Assembly (NCBI GenBank): GCA_006226595.1
Contig: SBGP01000030.1
Coordinates: 1 to 64,000, forward strand
Reading direction: 5' to 3'
DNA: 64,000 nucleotides
Source of the DNA: Deltaproteobacteria bacterium
GTDB taxonomy: Bacteria > Myxococcota_A > UBA796 > GCA-2862545
Shown here: positions 52,578-64,000 of the stretch, in pieces
Position numbering within the stretch: position 1 is the stretch's first letter
How the letters are laid out: each line of letters opens with the position of its first letter
Notes under the pieces: generated by a model
The model's input: only the letters and a program-made list of their open reading frames with translations
Told to the model about the DNA's origin: nothing
The model's database searches: none
Made by a program: the position numbers and the translations under genes

Positions 52578-52639
52578 GGGTCCTCCGGGCCCCAGCCTAC
52601 CCGAAGCCTGTCCGCGGCCGCGCTATAGGAGGACCCATG
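52575..52639. repeat. Perfect 12-bp inverted repeat formed by two divergent start regions
   Basis: CATGGGTCCTCC (52575-52586) and GGAGGACCCATG (52628-52639) are perfect inverted copies 41 bases apart. Each arm is the ribosome site plus the start codon of one divergent gene, the esterase to the left and the TetR regulator to the right. The identity may arise from shared initiation sequence, but it also makes a symmetrical site that a dimer could recognise. Confidence 0.6.
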
Positions 52640-53206
52640 GCGGACACCACCCGACGAACCAAGGGCGTACAGCGCGGCCAGCGGAGCCAGCGCGTCGTGG
52701 AGAGCGTGCGGCGGGCCACGCTCTCGGAGCTCGCCCGGGTCGGCTACGCGCAGCTCACCATGGACGGCGTGGCGACCGAGGCCGGCGTCCACCGCACGAC
52801 CCTGTACCGTCGCTGGCCGACGAAGCAGGACCTCGTGGCGTCGCTGCTCGACGATGGGCTCGACCGCTTCACCCACGTGCCGGCGACCGACGATCTGCGC
52901 GCGGACCTGCTCGCCCTCGCACGTCAGCTCGCCACGGACCTCTTCGACCCGGTGGGCCGAGCCCTCGCGGCCGTGCTCGCTTCTCCTGCCCCCGAGCTGC
53001 GCGAGGTCGTCGACCACGGGCGCACCGTGGTGAAGCAGACCTTCGAGGACCGCTTCGCGCGCGCCATCGCCACGGGCGCGCTGCCGGCGAACACCGACAT
53101 CGCCGCGCGCGCACACCTGCTGTTCTTCGGCGTCGTCCACCTCGCGCTGGACGAGGTGCCGCCGGGAGATCCGCGCTACGCGAGGCTCGTCGCGCAGCTT
53201 GCGTGA
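52637..53206 (+). CDS. TetR-family transcriptional regulator
   Basis: The protein has 189 residues behind GGAGG. The N-terminal helix-turn-helix is ATLSELARVGYAQLTMDGVATEAG followed by TTLYRRWPTKQDLV, the canonical TetR pattern; the C-terminal ligand domain is typical in length. It probably represses the esterase at 52577, itself, or the convergent SDR gene. The ligand is unknown. It ends one base before the SDR stop. Confidence 0.88.
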   Translation: MADTTRRTKGVQRGQRSQRVVESVRRATLSELARVGYAQLTMDGVATEAGVHRTTLYRRWPTKQDLVASLLDDGLDRFTHVPATDDLRADLLALARQLATDLFDPVGRALAAVLASPAPELREVVDHGRTVVKQTFEDRFARAIATGALPANTDIAARAHLLFFGVVHLALDEVPPGDPRYARLVAQLA

Positions 53207-54010
53207 TCAGCTGCCGAGCATCTTCTTCATCTGACGCTGGATGAAGCGGATCGACCACTGCGGGGCGATGCGCATCAGCGTGAACAGCGCCAGCGCGTCC
53301 TTGCCCACGAGGATGTGCAGGCGGTCCCGCTCCATGCCGTCGAGGATGATGCGCGCGGCTTCGGGCGCGGGGAGCGGCTTCAGTGAGGAGTTCTCGGGAT
53401 CACCGCCGGGCATGTCGGTGACACCGGAGTTCTCGCTGATGTGCGTGTCCACCGCCCCGGGCATGACCACCGACACAGACACCGAGGTATCCGCGAGCTC
53501 GGCGTACAGGCCCTCGGTGAGCAGCTTCACCGCCGCCTTGGACGCGCCGTACATCGTCTGGCCCGGAAACGGCATGAACCCGCCCATACTCGACACGTTG
53601 ACGATGTGGGCCTCGGGGCGAGCGCTCAGCCACGGCAGGAATGCGCGCAGCATGCGGATCGTGCCGTACAGGTTCACGTCGAGCACGCGCTCGATGGCCT
53701 TGTCGTCCAGCTCCGCGAAGGGCACGAACGGCTGGATGATGCCCGCGTTGTTGATCAGCGCATCCACCGCGCCGTGATGCGCGATGACCGCCTCGGGAAG
53801 CGCATCCACCGTCGCCTTGTCGGTGATGTTGGCCACATGCAGGGACAGGCGATCCCCTGCCCCGAGCAGCGCCGCGGTCTCGTCCAGTGCTTCCTGGTTG
53901 AGGTCGACGGCCGCCACACGCGCGCCGCGTTCGAGCAGCGCGGTGACGAGCGCGCGGCCGATGCCGCTGCCTCCTCCGGTGACGACGACGACCTTGTCCC
54001 TCACGCGCAT
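53207..54010 (-). CDS. Short-chain dehydrogenase/reductase
   Basis: The protein has 267 residues starting at ATG 54010 behind AGGAGG. The Rossmann motif is VVVTGGGSGIGRALV, then NNAG, the catalytic Ser in NVSSMGGF and YGASK (YxxxK). The Asp in AAVDLNQ after beta-2 favours NAD. The C-terminal basic extension (RIAPQWSIRFIQRQMKKMLG) is typical of lipid-related SDRs that associate with membranes. It is the first gene of the lipid-oriented region. Confidence 0.88.
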   Translation of the reverse strand: MRVRDKVVVVTGGGSGIGRALVTALLERGARVAAVDLNQEALDETAALLGAGDRLSLHVANITDKATVDALPEAVIAHHGAVDALINNAGIIQPFVPFAELDDKAIERVLDVNLYGTIRMLRAFLPWLSARPEAHIVNVSSMGGFMPFPGQTMYGASKAAVKLLTEGLYAELADTSVSVSVVMPGAVDTHISENSGVTDMPGGDPENSSLKPLPAPEAARIILDGMERDRLHILVGKDALALFTLMRIAPQWSIRFIQRQMKKMLGS

Positions 54011-54611: not shown

Positions 54612-55799
54612 ATGCTCCCGACGATGGATGCGCCTGTTCACATCGAGCCCACCGCGGCGAACCTGGTGGCCGTCACCCGGCGAGTAGAGCGGGTGCGCCC
54701 CTTGTTCAGGGCCGGGCTGTGGCCCTTCGTGCGCCTCGACGTCGAGGGGGTCGAGAACCTGCCCGCGAACGGGCCCGTCATCCTGCTCGCGAACCACGCG
54801 AACATGCTCGACCCCATCCTGCTGTCCACGGTCACCCCGCGACCCATCCAGTGGATGGGCACCGAGACCCTGCAGCGAACCCGGGTGCTCGGTCCCCTGC
54901 TCAAGGCCGCGGGCACCATCCCCACCAAGCGCTTTCGCCGCAACCTGCAGGCCGCGCGCCTCGCGAAGGCCTGGTGCAAGCAGGGCGCAGTGGTCGGCGT
55001 GTTTCCCGAGGGCGAGCGCAGCTGGTGCGGGCGCGTGCAGGAGCTGCGACCCGGCATCGCCACGCTGGTGCGCATAGTCGGCGCGCCAGTCGTGTTTGCC
55101 CAGGTCCAGAACAGCTACCGACACTGGCCCCGCTGGACGACCTTCCCGCGCAATGGACGCATCGTCGTCCGCTACTCCGAGCCCGTGCACTTCGCGCGCG
55201 ACGCGGCACCCGAGCACATCCTCGCCACCATCCGCGACGCGCTGGACGTCGACCCGCGGGCCCGCGAAGACCTGCCCACGCGCGGCCTTCGCCTGGCTCA
55301 GGGCCTGTCGAACCTGGTGTTCGTATGTCCGGCCTGCGATGAGGAGGAGTGCGTCGACGAGCAGTGGAACACGCTGCGCTGCCGCCGGTGCGGCGCGTCC
55401 TGGCACGTGGACGCCGCGAGTCGCCTTTGGCCCGCGACCGGTGGCGAAGCGATCGCGCTCGAGCAGTGCATGGACGCGACCGAGGCCCGCTTCGATCGCC
55501 TGTGGAACGCGCGCGCGGACGATCCGGGCCCAGTGTTCACCGCCGACGGGGTCACGCTCCAGGCAGAGGATGGACGCCGCGAGCGCGGCGAGCTCGCGCT
55601 GTTTCCCGACCGACTCGCCCTGCGCCGCGAGGGCGAGGAGCCGTGGAGCCTCGCCCTTGGTGAGGTCGAGAACCTCAACGTCGAGTTCCAGCGCATGCTC
55701 GAGGTCCACACCGCGACCGCGAGCTTCAAGGCCGAGCTGCGCATGGGATCGGCGTGGAAGTGGCCATGGGCCGCCCGCTGGTGGGCTCAGCGGGGGTAG
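54612..55799 (+). CDS. PlsC-type acyltransferase with C-terminal zinc ribbon
   Basis: The protein has about 395 residues from ATG 54612 (alternative 54624). The acyltransferase domain (about 30-235) has NHANMLD (HX4D), and FPEGERS, as in 1-acylglycerol-3-phosphate acyltransferases. After residue 235 comes a treble-clef or zinc-ribbon-like CPAC...CRRCGASWHVD, then a beta-rich extension ending WAARWWAQRG. The extra module is not part of ordinary PlsC enzymes and may bind lipid, membrane or a partner. It overlaps the convergent sulfotransferase gene by 13 bases. Confidence 0.85.
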   Translation: MLPTMDAPVHIEPTAANLVAVTRRVERVRPLFRAGLWPFVRLDVEGVENLPANGPVILLANHANMLDPILLSTVTPRPIQWMGTETLQRTRVLGPLLKAAGTIPTKRFRRNLQAARLAKAWCKQGAVVGVFPEGERSWCGRVQELRPGIATLVRIVGAPVVFAQVQNSYRHWPRWTTFPRNGRIVVRYSEPVHFARDAAPEHILATIRDALDVDPRAREDLPTRGLRLAQGLSNLVFVCPACDEEECVDEQWNTLRCRRCGASWHVDAASRLWPATGGEAIALEQCMDATEARFDRLWNARADDPGPVFTADGVTLQAEDGRRERGELALFPDRLALRREGEEPWSLALGEVENLNVEFQRMLEVHTATASFKAELRMGSAWKWPWAARWWAQRG

Positions 55800-56884
55800 C
55801 CCCACGCGTCGAAGCACGGGTCCGCGGCCTGCTGAACTCGCGCCTTCGTCGCCTCGTCGAGAGGCTCGAAGCGGTTGGCGCGGTACGGTCCGAGCTCGTC
55901 CAGGTACGCGCGAAACAGCGGCTCTCGGGCCTCGAAGCGACCGAGGTCGAGCTGCGCATAGATGCGCGCGAGCTGGTTCATCGGGTCGGCGACGAGCTGC
56001 TCGTAGCCGAGCTCGACGAGCTGCCCCTCGGGAATGAGCTCCCGGTCGGCGAACCACGCCTCGTGCATCTGCCGGTACTGCCGGAGGATGGTCGCATCGA
56101 CGTTCGGGTCACGGTCCTGGAGCGTCCAGAACCAGTCCACCGTGTCGTAGAGGTGCCGGGTCGATGCGAACACCCGGTACGGGTCCCGGTGGATGTGGAT
56201 GAAGCGCGCATCCGGGAACAGCTCGAGCAGCAGCCGCACCCGAGCGGTGTGCGCCGGCGACTTGAGCAGGAGCGGCGTGCCGCCGTGCACCGTGAGCCGC
56301 CGCATGAACTCGACCATCGCGGTGGCGAAGGCGTCGCGCTCGGGCTCGGTGCAGTCGTGGAGCGTGAGGAAGCGCTCGTAGTGCGCCAGCCGATCGGGGA
56401 ACGAGCGCCCGAGGTACGGCGTACACCCCGAGAGGATGCCGATCGCGTACTCGTCCTCCTCGGGGGTGTGAAAGCCCATCGGCACGTCGTCCTGGACGCG
56501 CTTGTTCGGGATCAGCGCGCGGAACGCCCGCGAGCTGAAAGCCTCGGTGGACAGGAAGGTGCGCGGATTGACGACCTGGAACGCGTTCGGAGCGGTGAGC
56601 TCCGGGTCGTGGGCGAGCAGGTGATAGAGCCAGGTGGTGCCGCTCCGCCAGTGGCCGAGGATGAACACGGGACGCTCGATCGCGACGTGGTCGTAGTCCG
56701 AGCCGAGCCTGATTCGCTCGAAGCGCGTGAGCGCCGAGTTGTAGGTCGCGAGCACGGTGAGCAGGGCAACCCGATGCGCGTAGGTCGCGGAGGGGCGGTT
56801 GTCGCGCAGCAGGCGCGCCCACTGGGACAGCGTCACCCCCGACAGCCAGTTCATGTCGGTACGCCAGCGGTACTTCACGGTCAT
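55787..56884 (-). CDS. PAPS-dependent sulfotransferase
   Basis: The protein has 365 residues. The 5'-phosphosulfate loop is VFILGHWRSGTTWLYHLLAHD and the 3'-phosphate site is FIHIHRDPYRVFAS, both intact, as in the Sulfotransferase_3 group that sulfates lipids, glycans and small molecules. It is the last of five genes in a minus-strand operon, and its ATG overlaps the stop of the epimerase-like gene by 4 bases (ATGA). The acceptor is unknown; the neighbouring acyltransferases and hydroxylases suggest a hydroxylated lipid. Confidence 0.88.
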   Translation of the reverse strand: MTVKYRWRTDMNWLSGVTLSQWARLLRDNRPSATYAHRVALLTVLATYNSALTRFERIRLGSDYDHVAIERPVFILGHWRSGTTWLYHLLAHDPELTAPNAFQVVNPRTFLSTEAFSSRAFRALIPNKRVQDDVPMGFHTPEEDEYAIGILSGCTPYLGRSFPDRLAHYERFLTLHDCTEPERDAFATAMVEFMRRLTVHGGTPLLLKSPAHTARVRLLLELFPDARFIHIHRDPYRVFASTRHLYDTVDWFWTLQDRDPNVDATILRQYRQMHEAWFADRELIPEGQLVELGYEQLVADPMNQLARIYAQLDLGRFEAREPLFRAYLDELGPYRANRFEPLDEATKARVQQAADPCFDAWGYPR

Positions 56885-57795
56885 CGCTGCCCCGCGTACC
56901 AGTCGCGCGCGCCCTCGACCACCGCCCGACGAGGGGTGAACGCGAGCTCTGGCAGCCACCTGGCGAGGCGGTGACTCGCGAAGCTCTGGTCGGTCGCGAC
57001 CAGTCGCAAGCGGATCGACGACAGGGACGAGGCGGTGGTCTCGGGATCGATGCGCAGCAGCATCTCTCTCGCGCGCACCGGCGCCATCAGCATCCACAGG
57101 GGTAGCGAGCGCGTCGGGGGGGAGCCTCCCAGCACCTCGCAGAGCTCGGTCGCGAAGGTGCGGAAGGACACGGGGTCTCCGTCGGTGACGTGGAACACGG
57201 ACTCGCCCTCCGGAAGCGCGCGTTCGGTCGCGAGATGGAGCACCGCGGCGAGGTCGTCGACGCCCACCAGCGACAGCATCGCTTGGCCCCCGCCCACCCA
57301 CACGGGAGAGCGCCGCACCGCACCGTGGATGCGCGGCACCACATGGTGATCGCCGCGCCCGACGACGAAGCGCGTGCGCAGGACGACACCCTCGACCCCA
57401 CCTTCGCGGCGGGCGGCGAGCACCAGCCGCTCGGCCTCGGCCTTGGACCTGGAGTAGGGCGTGTCCGGTGAGACCGGCGTGTGCTCGTCGGCGTTGCGGT
57501 GCGCGCCATGCCCGTACACCCCCACGGTCGAGAGCAGCACCACTCGTCGCACGGCCCGAGAGCGGGCCGCGGCGAGCACGATGCGCGTGCCGTCGACGTT
57601 CACCGCGAAGCCGGCTCCCTGATCCACCACGCGCTGCGCAAGGTGCACGATGGCGCGACAGCCCTCGGCCTGTGCCGCCACTGCCTCGAGGTCACGTACG
57701 TCCCCTTCGAGCGCACGCCAGGACTCGCCGCTCGCGTCGAGGTGCCGCCCGAGGGCCTGGCCGACGAAGCCCCGCGCACCGGTGACGAGGATCAT
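56881..57795 (-). CDS. NAD-dependent epimerase/3beta-HSD-like dehydrogenase
   Basis: The protein has 304 residues. MILVTGARGFVGQALGRHL is an extended-SDR Rossmann motif, and YSRSKAEAERLVL carries YxxxK. Substrates of this group are nucleotide sugars or, in the 3beta-HSD/NSDHL branch, sterols and hydroxylated lipids. The long helical C-terminus (LPLWMLMAPVRAREMLLRI) favours the lipid branch. It overlaps the acyltransferase and sulfotransferase genes by 4 bases each. Confidence 0.85.
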   Translation of the reverse strand: MILVTGARGFVGQALGRHLDASGESWRALEGDVRDLEAVAAQAEGCRAIVHLAQRVVDQGAGFAVNVDGTRIVLAAARSRAVRRVVLLSTVGVYGHGAHRNADEHTPVSPDTPYSRSKAEAERLVLAARREGGVEGVVLRTRFVVGRGDHHVVPRIHGAVRRSPVWVGGGQAMLSLVGVDDLAAVLHLATERALPEGESVFHVTDGDPVSFRTFATELCEVLGGSPPTRSLPLWMLMAPVRAREMLLRIDPETTASSLSSIRLRLVATDQSFASHRLARWLPELAFTPRRAVVEGARDWYAGQR

Positions 57796-58370
57796 CGCGG
57801 CTCCAGGGCCGACACGGCCGCGTGCAGGGCTTCGGTGAGCGCCTCGGCATCGCCGCTCGCCTCGAGCGGCCGTCCCACGAACAGCGACACCCGCCGCTCG
57901 CGTGGCTCGCCGGTGCCGTGGAGAAACACGGGAAGCACGGGCACACCCGCCGCGAGCGCGACCTCGGCGGGCCAGGTGCTGAACACGTCGAGGCGCGGCC
58001 GCCGGCCCATCTCCGGGTACACGAGCAACACCCGTCCGCGAGCGAGCAGCGCGGTGCAGTCGGCGACGTACTGCGCGTGATCGTCGACCCTGAGCACGTT
58101 CGCGAAGGCCATGAGCGCGCGCCGGCGACGGTTCTTGAACAGGCGGGGCTTGCCTCCGCACACCACCAGCGACGGGCGGATCGCCGCGGTCAGGTACACG
58201 GAGTCGGCGAAGCTCGCATGGTTGCACGCGACGATGGCGGGGCCCCCGGTGGGCAGGCGCTCGGCACCGTGGATGGTGAGCGCCCCCGAGGCCCTCAGCG
58301 CCGGCGCGAGCAGCGCGCGGGCCGTCCGATTGAGCAGGCGCGGCAACCGGCGGTCGACGCCGTCGATCAT
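57792..58370 (-). CDS. PlsC-type acyltransferase
   Basis: The protein has 192 residues. NHASFADS supplies the HX4D motif and LVYPEMGRRPR takes the place of FPEGTRS, so the acyltransferase core is recognisable but its substrate motif differs from true PlsC. It lacks long membrane helices. It overlaps both neighbours by 4 bases (amidohydrolase upstream, epimerase downstream). It probably transfers an acyl chain onto the lipid made by this operon. Confidence 0.82.
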   Translation of the reverse strand: MIDGVDRRLPRLLNRTARALLAPALRASGALTIHGAERLPTGGPAIVACNHASFADSVYLTAAIRPSLVVCGGKPRLFKNRRRRALMAFANVLRVDDHAQYVADCTALLARGRVLLVYPEMGRRPRLDVFSTWPAEVALAAGVPVLPVFLHGTGEPRERRVSLFVGRPLEASGDAEALTEALHAAVSALEPR

Positions 58371-59299
58371 GCCAGCGCGTCCTCGGCGAAGCGGGCCCCG
58401 TTGTCGTGCAGCAGCGCGGGGGCGAGGGTCGACGCCCCGGCGCGGTCGAGCGCACCGAGCAAGAGCCGCAGGTTCAGGGGGTACGCGTACGGCGGGCTGT
58501 CGTTGCCCCAGAAGAGCTTGTTCCAGTTCACCGCTACGCCGGCGAGCAGCCGCTGAAGCGCGAAGATGCCCGTGCCCGAGAGGTCCGCCCACACGTGCTC
58601 GTGCTGGCTGATCATCTGGGCGGCCGCCTCGAAGCCGATGGCGCCGCCCGCGTGGCACAGAATGACGCGCAGATCGGGAAACTCGCGGCAGGGCTTGTCG
58701 AAGAACAGCGGATCCGCGTGGGTCGAGCTCATGTAGGCGCCGGCCGCGGCTTCCTCTTCCTTGTGCCGGGCGGTGAAGAAGCCCGTGTGCACCATGGCCG
58801 CGAGCCGCAGCTCGCTCATCGCCGCCCAGAACGGCACCAGGCTCGGGTCATCGGCACGCCAGCCGGTGACCGGGAGCAGCTTGATCACGCGATGCCCGCG
58901 GTCGGCCGCTGCCTGCAGCTGCGCGAGCGCCTCGGGATGGCGCGGATCGACGAACTGACTTGCCCAGAACCGACCGGGATGCGTCCTGGCCACCTCGGCG
59001 AGTGCGGCATTGCCCTGGAGCGAGGTCGCCTCGTCTGGCGCGGACTGGAGGAGCGCCGTGCGGATGTTGAGCTGGTCCATCGCCAGCAGCTGGTAGCGCT
59101 CGATACCCGGGTACGCGGGCAGGATCTGGTGCATGTCGAGCATCGCCGGCGGCAGTCCCTGCAGCGATGCCATCGCTCCGAGGAAGAACGCCGGATTGCG
59201 CAGGTCGGCCGGATCCGGCGGATGCCCACACCGCGGACACGGCGCCGAGGGGTCCGCGAGGAGGTGTCGGCAGTAGACGTAGGCGCACTGCGCGATCAC
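58367..59299 (-). CDS. Amidohydrolase-2-family protein with N-terminal zinc-binding motif
   Basis: The protein has 310 residues starting at GTG 59299, which overlaps the stop of the upstream gene (GTGA). Residues 4-26 contain C-x4-C...CPRCGHP, a small zinc site. The rest is a TIM-barrel of the amidohydrolase 2/metal-dependent decarboxylase type: MVHTGFF, VILCHAGGAIG and LFWGNDSPP. The usual N-terminal HxH is missing or replaced by MHQI (residues 44-48), so it may be a non-canonical hydrolase or decarboxylase. Confidence 0.75.
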   Translation of the reverse strand: MIAQCAYVYCRHLLADPSAPCPRCGHPPDPADLRNPAFFLGAMASLQGLPPAMLDMHQILPAYPGIERYQLLAMDQLNIRTALLQSAPDEATSLQGNAALAEVARTHPGRFWASQFVDPRHPEALAQLQAAADRGHRVIKLLPVTGWRADDPSLVPFWAAMSELRLAAMVHTGFFTARHKEEEAAAGAYMSSTHADPLFFDKPCREFPDLRVILCHAGGAIGFEAAAQMISQHEHVWADLSGTGIFALQRLLAGVAVNWNKLFWGNDSPPYAYPLNLRLLLGALDRAGASTLAPALLHDNGARFAEDALA

Positions 59300-59892
59300 G
59301 CGTTCTCCTTCATGCGCTTGCGCATCCGCGCCATCACCGCTTCGGGCACCACACTCCACGTGCCGGTGAGCGTGCCGATCGACCGCCCGTGCTGCAAGTA
59401 GTGCCCGGTGTAGCGCATCTGCGTGAGCCGCTCGCGCTTCATACGCACGTCCTCGACCAGACCGAGCCCGAACACGGGGGCCTCGAGCTCGGCGAAGGAG
59501 TCGAAGTGCGCGTGCAGGTCCTGGATGAAGAAGGCGTACCCCTCGAGCGGTACGCCGTAGAACCGGTGTGCCACCGCGAGCCCGCACTGGCGGCCCGCCT
59601 CGATGAGCGCGAGCCCGGGCACGTGGTCTACCGGGTGCTCGAAGAAGTACGGATGGTCCGGCGGGAAACCCAACTGCGCGGCGTACACGTGGGCGCGACC
59701 GACCACGGCCTCGACCCGGCGGAGGAACACGTTGGCTTCCCGGTGCTTGTGGACCAGGCGCTTGTCGACCGTCGGCCGGGCCCCGCGGGCGGCCTCGGCG
59801 GACCATGCGTCGTGCACGGGCAACCAACGGTCGAGAGGAGACGTCATCACAGGCTCGGCGGGAAGGCGCGGGTGGGTCGAGAGCGAGGTCAC
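59296..59892 (-). CDS. AfsA-type hotdog-domain protein
   Basis: The protein has 198 residues. I chose GTG 59892 because GGAG lies seven bases upstream; ATG 59847 is the alternative. LVHKHREANVFL, YAAQLGFPPDHPYFFEHPVDH, LALIEAGRQCGLAVAHRFYG and VPL match the AfsA (A-factor biosynthesis) hotdog signature, including the 'E..RQ' and 'AHR.YGVPL' blocks. AfsA enzymes join a beta-ketoacyl-ACP to dihydroxyacetone phosphate in gamma-butyrolactone synthesis. Only one repeat is present, while streptomycete AfsA has two. It is the first gene of the five-gene operon. Confidence 0.8.
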   Translation of the reverse strand: MTSLSTHPRLPAEPVMTSPLDRWLPVHDAWSAEAARGARPTVDKRLVHKHREANVFLRRVEAVVGRAHVYAAQLGFPPDHPYFFEHPVDHVPGLALIEAGRQCGLAVAHRFYGVPLEGYAFFIQDLHAHFDSFAELEAPVFGLGLVEDVRMKRERLTQMRYTGHYLQHGRSIGTLTGTWSVVPEAVMARMRKRMKENA

Positions 59893-60137: not shown

Positions 60138-60944
60138 ATGACCCGCTGCGATGGACATCCCCTCGGCGTGCTGCGCGCGCCACTGGCCCTGCTCGTGCTG
60201 CTCGGCACGACCGCCTGCCATGTCGAGGACGCGCCCGAGAACCTCGAAGAGCTCGTGGTCTTCGGGTTCATCCACTTCTCGGACAGCCGCGCGGACGAGG
60301 CGCCGACCGGGCTGCTGCCGCTCACCGAGCAGTACGCCGACGAGCTGGTCGAGGGCATGCGCGTCACCGCCATGTCCTCGGAACACCTGGAAGAAGCGGG
60401 TATCGAGGCCGAGCAGGTCAATCCGATCATCGGCATGTCGGCCACCGTCAGCATGCGCTCGTCGGTCGACGAGTTCGCGATGGCGTGGAGCTACCCGAAC
60501 ATGAACGAGGTGGTCGAAGGCACCCTCGACTTCCGCGTCGACACCGAGTACGGCGACCGCGAGTGCTTCCTCGCCGGCGAGTGCGACACCTACGGCTACG
60601 ACGGGTGGCGCCACAACGACCTCGGCTTCTTCGGCACCTCCGCCCAGGACTTCACCCGCGAGTTCATCTGGATCGACGTGGTCGATGGACCGCGGGTGCT
60701 GGTCAGCCGCGACATCGTGCCGACCGACGCCGAGATGACCGGCGGGCTGTTCCGCGTGCATCAGCAGTACACCTACAGTCTGGTGTTCCCCGCGGACGGC
60801 GGCGGGACCACGCGACTCGACACGTTCTGGGTCGATGCAGAGCTCATCGGCGTCGACGTGCCCGACTACTTCGCGCTCGAGACCACGGTCAACAACCTGC
60901 AGAACACCGCCGACGACGTCGACGCCTTCGTAGACGCGCAGTAG
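60138..60944 (+). CDS. Putative lipoprotein, first gene of the plus-strand lipid set
   Basis: The protein has 268 residues with an N-terminal hydrophobic segment (LRAPLALLVLLGTTAC) ending in a lipobox-like TTAC. The body is acidic and beta-rich; CFLAGECDTYGYDGW could form a disulfide. No family is recognised. It begins 245 bases from the divergent AfsA-like gene, and the COG3687-type gene follows 8 bases after its stop, so it is probably part of that transcript. Confidence 0.7.
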   Translation: MTRCDGHPLGVLRAPLALLVLLGTTACHVEDAPENLEELVVFGFIHFSDSRADEAPTGLLPLTEQYADELVEGMRVTAMSSEHLEEAGIEAEQVNPIIGMSATVSMRSSVDEFAMAWSYPNMNEVVEGTLDFRVDTEYGDRECFLAGECDTYGYDGWRHNDLGFFGTSAQDFTREFIWIDVVDGPRVLVSRDIVPTDAEMTGGLFRVHQQYTYSLVFPADGGGTTRLDTFWVDAELIGVDVPDYFALETTVNNLQNTADDVDAFVDAQ

Positions 60945-60952
60945 CCGACGCC

Positions 60953-61795
60953 GTGAACCGTCCCGCCGAGAACGCCGTCACCACGCGGACGATCACCGTT
61001 CGCAAGCCCACGCTCGACCTCGACGCGCCGGCTCCTCGCTACTGGTGGGACGACTCCCCGGCCATCACCTGCTTCGCGTACGCCATGTCGGCCGCGTTTC
61101 CCGTCGGGGAGCGGTTCTTCGTGCGCACCGTGCACCAGGTCAAGGACCAGGTCCGCGACCCTGCCCTGCTCGCCGAGATGCGCGGGTTCATGGGTCAGGA
61201 GGGTCAGCACGCGAACACGCACGAACGCTACAACCAGCGGGCCGAGGCCGAGGGATTCCCGGTGTCGCGCATCACCGCGAACCTCCAGAAAGGGGCGAGC
61301 CGCGTGACCCGCTGGGTCTCGGTGCCGAACCAGCTCGCACTCACCGCCGCCTTCGAGCACTTCACGGCGATGGCGTCCTGGCAGATGCTCGGTGGCGAGC
61401 GGATCATGGACCGCGTCGCCTCGCCCCATCGCGAGCTGTGGCTGTGGCACGCCGCCGAAGAGCTCGAGCACAAGGCCGTCGCCTTCGACGTGTACATGGC
61501 GGTCGATGGCAGCTACCTGCGGCGCGCGTTCGCCTACCTCGTCGCCACGCTCTCGATGGGCCTGATGACCCTGTTTCGCACGTGGTTCTTGATGTACGCG
61601 GACGGCAGCCTGTTCGTCCCGCGGCACCACTGGACCTTCGTCCGCTGGCTGCTGTGGTCTCCGGGACTGGCACGCATTCTGCTGTGGCGTTGGGTGGACT
61701 ACCTGCGGCCGGGCTTCCATCCCTGGCAGCACGACGACCAGGCGCTGCTGCTTGCGTGGCGGCGCGAGTGGGATTCCCACTCGGGTGCGGCGTGA
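60953..61795 (+). CDS. COG3687-type metal-dependent hydrolase (ferritin-like)
   Basis: The protein has 280 residues starting at GTG 60953. Conserved blocks are PAITCFAYAMSAAFPVGERF, GQEGQHANTHERYN and HAAEELEHKAVAFDVY. The E..Q..H and EELEH arrangements suggest a di-iron four-helix site. The family (Metal_hydrol, PF10118) is annotated as a predicted metal-dependent hydrolase but may be an oxidase. A membrane helix (LVATLSMGLMTLFRTWFLMY) follows. The lipid context fits a membrane-lipid modifying enzyme. Confidence 0.82.
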   Translation: MNRPAENAVTTRTITVRKPTLDLDAPAPRYWWDDSPAITCFAYAMSAAFPVGERFFVRTVHQVKDQVRDPALLAEMRGFMGQEGQHANTHERYNQRAEAEGFPVSRITANLQKGASRVTRWVSVPNQLALTAAFEHFTAMASWQMLGGERIMDRVASPHRELWLWHAAEELEHKAVAFDVYMAVDGSYLRRAFAYLVATLSMGLMTLFRTWFLMYADGSLFVPRHHWTFVRWLLWSPGLARILLWRWVDYLRPGFHPWQHDDQALLLAWRREWDSHSGAA

Positions 61796-61824: not shown

Positions 61825-62775
61825 ATGATGAGTCGCTCACCGCGTTGGCTCGAGAGCCCCAAGCCACAACACCCCCACCGGGCGCAGCTCGCGTACGTCC
61901 TCCTCGTGGTAGGCCCCTCGCTCCTGTCCGTGGGCCTGCTCGCGGGCTTCGGCGCGCTCACCGGCACCACCTTCTCGCTCGGGCTGTTCTTCGTCGCGCT
62001 GATGAGCCTGCGGCAGGTCAACGTCGTGGTCGTCACCCTGCTCTACCACCGGAGCATGAGTCACCGGACGCTCAAGCTGCACCCGGTGCTCGAGTACGTC
62101 TTCCGCATCTGGGGCTGGCTCACCCTGGCCATCGGCACGCGCATCTGGTCGCTCACCCACCGCGTTCACCACGCCCACGCCGATACCGACAAGGACGTGC
62201 ACAGCCCGGTCACCGAGGGCCACAGCCTGTGGACCGTCGGGCGGCAGTCCATCGACGCGGTACGCAAGGTCGGTGCGGACCAGAGCCTGTTCGAGCGCCT
62301 CGGCTCGGACCTGCCCTCGGACCGTCTCGAGCGCATCATCGAGTGGGACCACCGCCGGCACTTCGGCATGACCGGCATCCGCTTTCCGCTGCTCCTGTCG
62401 CTGATCACGCTGGCGTGGCTGTCCCTGGGCTACGCCCCCGGCATCGCGCTGGGCGCGGCGGTGTGCTCGCTGCCCGGCATCAACCTCTCCGTGTTCACGT
62501 CGACGGTGTTCCTCGTCAACGGCGTGGCGCACGTGTGGGGCTACCGGAACTACGAGGGCCTCGACCACAGCACGAACCTGCTGCCCATCGACTTCTTCGG
62601 GCTCGGCGAGGCGCTGCACAACAACCACCACGCGGCGCCGGGCTGCGCGAACAACGCCCACCGCGAGGGCGAGATCGACCCCGGCTTCCTGCTCGCCAAG
62701 CTGCTCGCGTCGGTCGGGCTGGTCACCGAGCTCAAGGAGGGGCCGGCTCGCCACGCGCGTCGCGCCCTCGAGTAG
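61825..62775 (+). CDS. Acyl-CoA/lipid delta-9-type fatty acid desaturase
   Basis: The protein has 316 residues. It begins MMSRS behind AAGGAACGG, with two adjacent ATGs at 61825 and 61828. The three histidine boxes of stearoyl-CoA-type desaturases are intact: HRSMSH, HRVHHAH and HNNHH. About four membrane helices are present (LAYVLLVVGPSLLSVGLLAG, then VFRIWGWLTLAIG and FPLLLSLITLAWLSL). It introduces a double bond into an acyl chain using a di-iron centre. It lies between the COG3687-type and hydroxylase genes. Confidence 0.92.
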   Translation: MMSRSPRWLESPKPQHPHRAQLAYVLLVVGPSLLSVGLLAGFGALTGTTFSLGLFFVALMSLRQVNVVVVTLLYHRSMSHRTLKLHPVLEYVFRIWGWLTLAIGTRIWSLTHRVHHAHADTDKDVHSPVTEGHSLWTVGRQSIDAVRKVGADQSLFERLGSDLPSDRLERIIEWDHRRHFGMTGIRFPLLLSLITLAWLSLGYAPGIALGAAVCSLPGINLSVFTSTVFLVNGVAHVWGYRNYEGLDHSTNLLPIDFFGLGEALHNNHHAAPGCANNAHREGEIDPGFLLAKLLASVGLVTELKEGPARHARRALE

Positions 62776-62779
62776 CCCG

Positions 62780-63808
62780 ATGATCGACGCCAACGTCCTC
62801 GTGATGCCCGCCTTCGTCGGTCTGATGGCCGCGGAGTACGCCGTGGGCCGCGCGAGGGGCCACCAGCTGTACAGCCTCGGCGGCACCCTCGACGACGTCG
62901 CGAGCTCGCTCACCCATCTCGTCGGTCTCGCCGTGCTCGGCACGACCACCTTCGCGATGTACGAGGCACTGCGCGTCCACATCGCCGTCACCGCCTTCCC
63001 GATGGACCAGTGGTGGGCGTGGGTGCTCGGATGGGTGCTCTCGGACTTCTGCTGGTACTGGCGGCACCGCTTCGGGCACGACACCTCGCTGGGCTGGGCC
63101 ATCCACGAGGTCCACCACCAGTCGCGGGAGATGAACCTCGCCGTCGGCCTGCGGGTGAGCGCGTTTCAGTGGGCGCAGACCGCCCCGTTCATGCTGCCGA
63201 TGGCGCTGCTCGGCATGCCCATGCCGATGTTCGCGGCCATCTTCGGGGTCGCCCACACCTACCAGACCCTGCTCCACACCCAGCTGGTCGACCGCTTCGG
63301 GCCCTTCGGGTGGCTGCTCACCCAGCCCGCCGACCACCGGCTGCACCACGCGCGCAACCCGCGCTACCTGAACAAGAACTTCGGTCACAACCTGATCATC
63401 TGGGACCGACTGTTCGGCACCTACGCCGTCGAGGACCCGGCGGACCCGGTGGTGTACGGCATCGAACGCCCCCGCGCCGCGTGGGACCCGGTCCGCAACA
63501 ACCTCGAGCCATGGCTGGACCTCGTCGGTCGACGCGCCGAGCCGGGCGAGCCGATTCACGCCACGGCCACCCCCACCCATCGCGCGCTCGGCGTCGCGTG
63601 GTTCGCGGTGGCCCTCGGAAGCGCGGCCCTGCTCATCCAGCACCACGCGACCTGGCCGCTCGCCCTCCGCGTGGCCGCCGCCGTGTGGGTGCTGTGGACC
63701 TTCGGACATGCAGGACGCGTGATCGAGGGGCGTGCCAGCCCCTTGTGGGCCGAGGGAAGTCGCGTCGCCCTCGGCGCGGCCGTGCTCTTCGCCGCGGTCG
63801 GCGCATGA
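62780..63808 (+). CDS. Sterol desaturase/fatty acid hydroxylase superfamily protein
   Basis: The protein has 342 residues with several membrane helices. The di-iron histidine clusters are HRFGHD, HEVHHQS and HRLHHA. Such enzymes hydroxylate or desaturate sterols, fatty acids or ether lipids. It starts 4 bases after the desaturase stop; the stop TGA overlaps the ATG of the MMPL gene (ATGA). It is more complete than the hydroxylase domain fused to the FecA-like receptor at 29027 and is not its close copy. Confidence 0.9.
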   Translation: MIDANVLVMPAFVGLMAAEYAVGRARGHQLYSLGGTLDDVASSLTHLVGLAVLGTTTFAMYEALRVHIAVTAFPMDQWWAWVLGWVLSDFCWYWRHRFGHDTSLGWAIHEVHHQSREMNLAVGLRVSAFQWAQTAPFMLPMALLGMPMPMFAAIFGVAHTYQTLLHTQLVDRFGPFGWLLTQPADHRLHHARNPRYLNKNFGHNLIIWDRLFGTYAVEDPADPVVYGIERPRAAWDPVRNNLEPWLDLVGRRAEPGEPIHATATPTHRALGVAWFAVALGSAALLIQHHATWPLALRVAAAVWVLWTFGHAGRVIEGRASPLWAEGSRVALGAAVLFAAVGA

Positions 63809-64000
63809 GCCTTGGTGGGCTGGCTCGCGCGGTGATGGCCCACCCTCGTCGGGTGGCGCTCGGGGCCGTGTGTCTCGCCGTCGTCGCCATGCTCATCGGC
63901 CTTCCCGTGCGCCTCGACCCGAGCATCGTCGCCCTGCTGCCGCCGGACAACCCCCACGCGCAGGCCCTGAAGCGGGTCGCGAGCGAGACCGGCGGCATCA
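63805..64000 (+). CDS. MMPL/RND-family exporter, N-terminal fragment (runs off the window)
   Basis: Only the first 65 residues are present. A basic start (LARAVMAHPRRVALG) leads into one membrane helix (AVCLAVVAMLIGLPV), then LDPSIVALLPPDNPHAQALK, the typical periplasmic entry of MMPL/RND lipid exporters ('LLPxxxP..Q'). MMPL proteins move lipids across the inner membrane. Coupling by ATGA to the hydroxylase suggests export of the lipid made by this region. Confidence 0.8.
   Translation, partial: MSLGGLARAVMAHPRRVALGAVCLAVVAMLIGLPVRLDPSIVALLPPDNPHAQALKRVASETGGI

Follow-up and report, generated by a model that had tools for sequence, protein, structure and literature searches.

A Conserved Four-Gene AfsA-Amidohydrolase Core in Three Bacterial Phyla, a Possible Lipid or Specialised-Metabolite Module

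Introduction

AfsA-type enzymes have so far been known mainly from signalling butenolides and butyrolactones and from chain release in polyketide synthases (PKS). Mycobacterial sulfolipid SL-1 loci combine acyltransferases, a 3′-phosphoadenosine-5′-phosphosulfate (PAPS) sulfotransferase and an MMPL exporter for a sulfated lipid; AfsA and amidohydrolase proteins are not known to be part of that pathway. An AfsA domain terminating the gladiostatin PKS condensed 3-ketothioesters with dihydroxyacetone phosphate (DHAP) in vitro, and the characterised AfsA-family enzymes discussed in the same work use DHAP (PMC7756379). In the gamma-butyrolactone (GBL) cluster of Ruegeria pomeroyi DSS-3, two hypothetical proteins flank an AfsA-domain protein, and regulators and a transporter are encoded as well (PMC7426152). 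Here we describe a five-gene operon led by an AfsA-type gene in a Deltaproteobacteria bacterium (Myxococcota_A; assembly GCA_006226595.1), analysed within a stretch of 64,000 nucleotides of contig SBGP01000030.1 (positions 1 to 64,000, hereafter the window). A search of open-licence papers found no described pathway with this gene set, in agreement with the initial annotation, which had been made from the sequence alone.

The Operon and Its Conserved Core

The operon consists of five minus-strand genes running from 59847 to 55787. They encode an AfsA-type single-hotdog protein (core gene 1; 59296-59847, 183 aa), a zinc-ribbon amidohydrolase-2 (Amh, core gene 2; 58367-59299, 310 aa), a PlsC-type acyltransferase (PlsC1, core gene 3; 57792-58370, 192 aa), an extended short-chain dehydrogenase/reductase (SDR)-like protein (core gene 4; 56881-57795, 304 aa) and a sulfotransferase (55787-56884, 365 aa). 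The five gene identities initially proposed, including the AfsA family of the leader, are borne out by Pfam scores above the respective cut-offs: PF03756 (97.6 bits, cut-off 24), PF04909 (76.6), PF01553 (48.3), PF01370 (105.6) and PF13469 (142). The conserved unit is the set of four genes AfsA-Amh-PlsC-SDR, usually with a second PlsC gene close by, to which the sulfotransferase is added within the window's family. This core is almost certainly a genuine biosynthetic unit.

Searches with PF03756 covered 58 relatives as well as 379 phylum genomes, and these 379 were also scanned with the amidohydrolase profile; the sample is incomplete and consists mostly of metagenome-assembled genomes (MAGs), and the relatives' genes come from a simple codon-bias caller with approximate start positions. 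The 7.23 Mb assembly of the window organism contains a single PF03756 match, the operon leader. Strong AfsA and amidohydrolase matches occur together in exactly the same 4 of the 379 phylum genomes, representing four genera of one family, that of the window; a genus-mate of the window genome in the sample has neither. The order AfsA-Amh-PlsC-SDR is retained in three relatives (G010, G013 and G015, the last with its AfsA gene truncated by a contig end), with approximately 40-67% identity to the window proteins.

Since an AfsA single-protein query gave no match in the genome contig collection, a profile-guided contig scan was built on the amidohydrolase alignment. It revealed the core in one Chitinophagaceae MAG (Bacteroidota) and in a first MAG of the Thermoanaerobaculia (Acidobacteriota), and a class-wide search added three more of the latter (4 of 149 Thermoanaerobaculia genomes in total). 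Three of these four loci read AfsA-Amh-PlsC-SDR-PlsC2 on a single strand; in the fourth, the second PlsC gene is convergent to the SDR gene. One carrier was found among 199 genomes drawn from across the Acidobacteriota, and only the already known one in the Bacteroidota (296 genomes phylum-wide and 246 family-wide). Viral contigs yielded no module, and a plasmid search gave no further one, returning only a distant Nonomuraea amidohydrolase, canonical ScbA proteins and one stand-alone Mycetohabitans AfsA. Every Amh-positive genome searched outside the window's phylum has one AfsA, and the four core proteins diverge in parallel (r 0.87-0.98).

The core order is thus kept across three phyla, namely the window's phylum, Acidobacteriota and Bacteroidota, while the sulfotransferase is separated or absent; for this reason we regard the four-gene core as the real unit and the sulfotransferase as family-specific. 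In G010 and G013, a sulfotransferase gene lies within the locus but apart from the SDR gene: a cytochrome P450 gene intervenes in G010, and an MMPL gene of opposite orientation does so in G013. Outside the window's family no sulfotransferase is found beside the module. The initial annotation had treated all five genes as one unit, to be doubted if they were scattered in close relatives: the four core genes do stay together, and it is the sulfotransferase that is scattered. Its link to the core has three loci as its basis.

All four junctions of the window operon have a spacing of exactly -4 nt, as first reported: GTGA once, between AfsA and Amh (59296-59299), and ATGA three times, at Amh/PlsC (58367-58370), PlsC/SDR (57792-57795) and SDR/sulfotransferase (56881-56884). 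The AfsA/Amh junction of the Bacteroidota copy is likewise GTGA at -4. From these overlaps it had been concluded that the proteins are made in fixed proportion; translational coupling is the most they suggest, as the same exact spacing occurs in 5 of the 16 other close same-strand pairs of the window (gap of 30 or less), and core junctions in relatives vary (-4, -7, -10, -13, +7, up to +288). By itself the overlap pattern is ordinary, and the signal above chance is the co-occurrence of single-hotdog AfsA and the amidohydrolase. The more likely start of the AfsA gene is the ATG at 59847 (183 aa) rather than the GTG at 59892, because two family homologues begin with "MT" at the same point.

Predicted Functions of AfsA and the Amidohydrolase

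The AfsA-type protein has one hotdog domain both in sequence and in its AlphaFold2 (AF2) model (pLDDT 76). It scores 81.1 bits against the ScbA/BarX equivalog NF041195 (cut-off 200), reaching neither this cut-off nor the two-hotdog organisation of that group. The single domain combines the VHK motif, found in the N-half of two-domain ScbA, with the HPxDHVPG motif of the C-half, which is why a homodimer could form complete active sites. The VHK...HPxDHxPG...Q signature conserved in the protein is of AfsA type, and DHAP is its probable substrate.

A competing explanation, which we consider rather unlikely, is that the protein acts on an acyl chain without DHAP, as a FabZ-type dehydratase or thioesterase, and that the role of the module is to modify or offload fatty acids destined for an acylated lipid. 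Its nearest structural neighbours are FabZ dehydratases (best Foldseek match 6n3p, E 3e-6), the single hotdog is as in FabZ, and a profile search matches FabZ 7qv0 (E 0.0018). However, the conserved signature marks the AfsA type, the single AfsA of Mycetohabitans rhizoxinica and the halves of ScbA align through it, and DHAP is used by the characterised family members (PMC7756379).

One of the Thermoanaerobaculia genomes (G379) yielded no free AfsA; approximately 3.6 kb from its Amh-PlsC-SDR core lies a PKS fragment (L036:17491-19617, minus strand) that has acyltransferase (AT) and acyl carrier protein (ACP) domains and a C-terminal AfsA-type region. This is likely a second example, here from Acidobacteriota, of an AfsA domain serving in PKS release. 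Near the core in this class, two loci encode Sfp-type phosphopantetheinyl transferases, one locus a fatty acyl-AMP ligase (FAAL)-like AMP ligase and one the C-terminal fragment of a FAAL-like protein. Together with the PKS-AfsA replacement, these neighbours fit a beta-ketoacyl-ACP donor for AfsA.

PF03756 proteins were also observed in other settings. The stand-alone single-hotdog AfsA of the M. rhizoxinica megaplasmid (L037:8959-9519; 37-40% identical) has transposase fragments and a nonribosomal peptide synthetase/PKS gene nearby, and no amidohydrolase gene in its vicinity. In G109, from another family of the phylum, two PF03756 matches (L010/L012; G109:C137:23342-24010) fall within one open frame of 1126 aa, which is not of the single-hotdog type.

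The AF2 model of Amh (pLDDT 90) is a TIM barrel, which, together with its profile score and the metal-ligand residues of a predicted metal site, places the protein in the amidohydrolase-2 family. The nearest structures are 3irs (Z 21.5), 3cjp, 2f6k and 2dvt, a 2,6-dihydroxybenzoate decarboxylase (Z 19.0); comparison with 4i6k, a probable 2-pyrone-4,6-dicarboxylate (PDC) lactonase, gives Z 18.6. Residues D55, H57, H171, H216 and D267, as well as the N-terminal ribbon cysteines C5, C10, C21 and C24, are invariant in nine homologues, and the metal site is predicted to be decarboxylase-like. A dead enzyme, considered on account of the broken HxH motif, was rejected, as the D-x-H...H...H...D set is invariant and matches the decarboxylase type. 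The E-x-H-x-A variant of this site is known from gamma-resorcylate decarboxylase.

Genes Surrounding the Core

The sulfotransferase is assigned to the PAPS-dependent type by its PF13469 score and the 5′-phosphosulfate-binding motif RSGTT. Convergent with the operon, a second PlsC-type acyltransferase with a C-terminal CxxC/CxxC ribbon (PlsC2; PF01553, plus strand, 54612-55799) has homologues in the G010 and G013 loci. The divergent plus-strand genes begin with a conserved lipoprotein-like protein (60138-60944; no Pfam hit, 45-58% identical homologues in the G010 and G013 loci), possibly a carrier or surface part of an export system. It is followed by a PF10118 predicted metal-dependent hydrolase (60953-61795; 259 bits, homologue in G013), a DesA-family fatty acid desaturase-like protein (61825-62775; PF00487, 168 bits against NF049918, below its cut-off of 400, 66% homologue in G013), an OlsE-like fatty acid hydroxylase family protein (62780-63808; PF04116, 95 bits, homologues in G010 and G013) and the start of an MMPL/HpnN-like exporter (63805-64000, reaching about 66081 of the contig; PF03176, 94 bits; HpnN-like 187 bits, below cut-off). 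A second OlsE-like PF04116 hydroxylase is located after the MMPL gene, beyond the window (66078-67250 of the contig).

This surrounding locus, comprising PlsC2, the lipoprotein, PF10118, the desaturase, two hydroxylases and MMPL, is shared with G010 and/or G013, and the MMPL gene adjoins the SDR gene in G013 and G015. The locus content of the family points to an exported sulfated lipid more than to a butyrolactone signal. The P450 gene between SDR and sulfotransferase in G010 (L005:2842-4140) represents an oxygenase choice different from that of the window locus. A TetR regulator (52637-53206) and a short-chain dehydrogenase (53207-54010) adjoin the locus in the window; neither has a homologue in the relatives' loci fetched, and their link to it is uncertain.

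The initial annotation had named either a sulfated acyl lipid or a butyrolactone-type signal as the product; the lipid-type locus favours the former and the latter is weakened. For a diffusible butyrolactone or butenolide signal, AfsA would make a butenolide, the SDR would reduce it, the other enzymes would tailor it and a TetR receptor would sense it. Such a system would be consistent with a PF03756 leader, with the TetR gene at 52637-53206 and with the control of killing by an AfsA-domain GBL cluster in the Gram-negative R. pomeroyi (PMC7426152). We nevertheless find it unlikely, because the single-hotdog leader misses the ScbA cut-off (81 of 200 bits), ScbR-type receptors (NF041196) stay below theirs (27 of 150 bits for the neighbouring TetR; 0 of 44 TetR-type hits in the assembly above it, the best at 71) and the locus resembles lipid export. 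MMPL, hydroxylases and acyltransferases are unlike GBL clusters, and the SDR tyrosine is lost in most homologues. That the five genes are merely unrelated neighbours, tightly packed in a gene-dense genome, as the frequent -4 overlaps of the window might suggest, is extremely improbable and is refuted for the four core genes by their order across three phyla and exact co-occurrence.

Proposed Pathway

We tentatively read the core as a rare four-enzyme module for a lipid or specialised metabolite, grown in this genome to a locus of about 12 genes. This reading builds on observed genes, families, conserved linkage, co-occurrence and altered motifs, from which we infer all of the reactions. AfsA, as a dimer, would condense a beta-ketoacyl thioester, supplied by fatty acid synthesis or, in one Acidobacteriota version, by a PKS, with DHAP; judging from the family, the resulting beta-ketoacyl-DHAP ester would cyclise to a phosphorylated 2-acylbutenolide. 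The second step is the weakest: given its lactonase/decarboxylase-type fold and metal site, the amidohydrolase would open the butenolide and/or decarboxylate the beta-keto acid so formed, and the chain would stay attached to the three-carbon unit through a C-C bond. We hold this assignment to be doubtful. Free hydroxyls would then be acylated by PlsC1 and perhaps PlsC2, with the SDR-like protein contributing a redox or non-canonical reaction. In the window's family only, the desaturase, hydroxylases and PAPS sulfotransferase would decorate the lipid and MMPL would export it, so that a sulfated exported lipid is a plausible, if tentative, product. A bolder and rather improbable proposal is that the core makes a new backbone, in which a DHAP butenolide is opened and decarboxylated and the acyl chain is C-C linked to a glycerol-like unit, giving a PlsC-acylated glycerolipid analogue with a sulfated exported form in this lineage.

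Several points weigh against this scheme. The HX4D catalytic dyad of PlsC1 is present in all nine homologues, but the protein lacks the EGTR-type glycerol-phosphate motif, having PEMGR, PELGR, PAFGR or PEMSK at that place. The YxxxK motif of the SDR is intact in the window copy, but the catalytic Tyr is replaced by Phe, Val or Leu in the other eight of the nine homologues, and Lys by Arg in three. A simple scheme of reducing and then acylating a lysophosphatidate therefore fits poorly; the altered motifs suggest an acceptor other than ordinary lysophosphatidate for PlsC1, and an SDR that may work differently from a standard reductase. The reaction of the amidohydrolase is not fixed by fold similarity, in the EAxRQ motif of the Bacteroidota AfsA copy D stands for E and K for R, and no description of activity in single-hotdog AfsA proteins was found in the literature. 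Finally, the lipid-type surroundings were seen only in the window's family.

If the proposed module is true, AfsA chemistry would reach into lipids in three Gram-negative phyla, with a single-hotdog AfsA tied to an amidohydrolase and to acyltransferases of the phospholipid type, and the zinc-ribbon amidohydrolase would be a clear genetic handle for finding producers.

Comparison with Known Systems

SL-1 loci resemble the window locus only in how they would work, and no trehalose genes or Pks2 were seen in the latter. The R. pomeroyi DSS-3 cluster is likewise a Gram-negative AfsA-domain cluster; unlike the window operon, it is described in a text from which the words amidohydrolase, acyltransferase and epimerase are absent (PMC7426152). 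The phosphorylated butenolide synthase (PBS) domain of the gladiostatin PKS is also of AfsA type and comes from outside Actinobacteria (PMC7756379), and the AT-ACP-AfsA fragment by the core of G379 is comparable to it; the window AfsA, in contrast, is free-standing and encoded with Amh, PlsC and SDR, with no glutarimide PKS. With the gamma-butyrolactone synthases AfsA, ScbA and BarX the window protein shares the Pfam family PF03756 and the HPxDHVPG and EAxRQ motifs; however, it has one hotdog (183 aa) where three references have two (286-333 aa), and it carries the N-half VHK/VHR and the C-half DHVPG in one domain. The amidohydrolase shares the TIM barrel (Z 18.6-19.0) and the D-x-H, H, H, D site with amidohydrolase-2 decarboxylases and lactonases (2dvt, 4i6k), from which it is set apart by an extra N-terminal four-Cys zinc ribbon.

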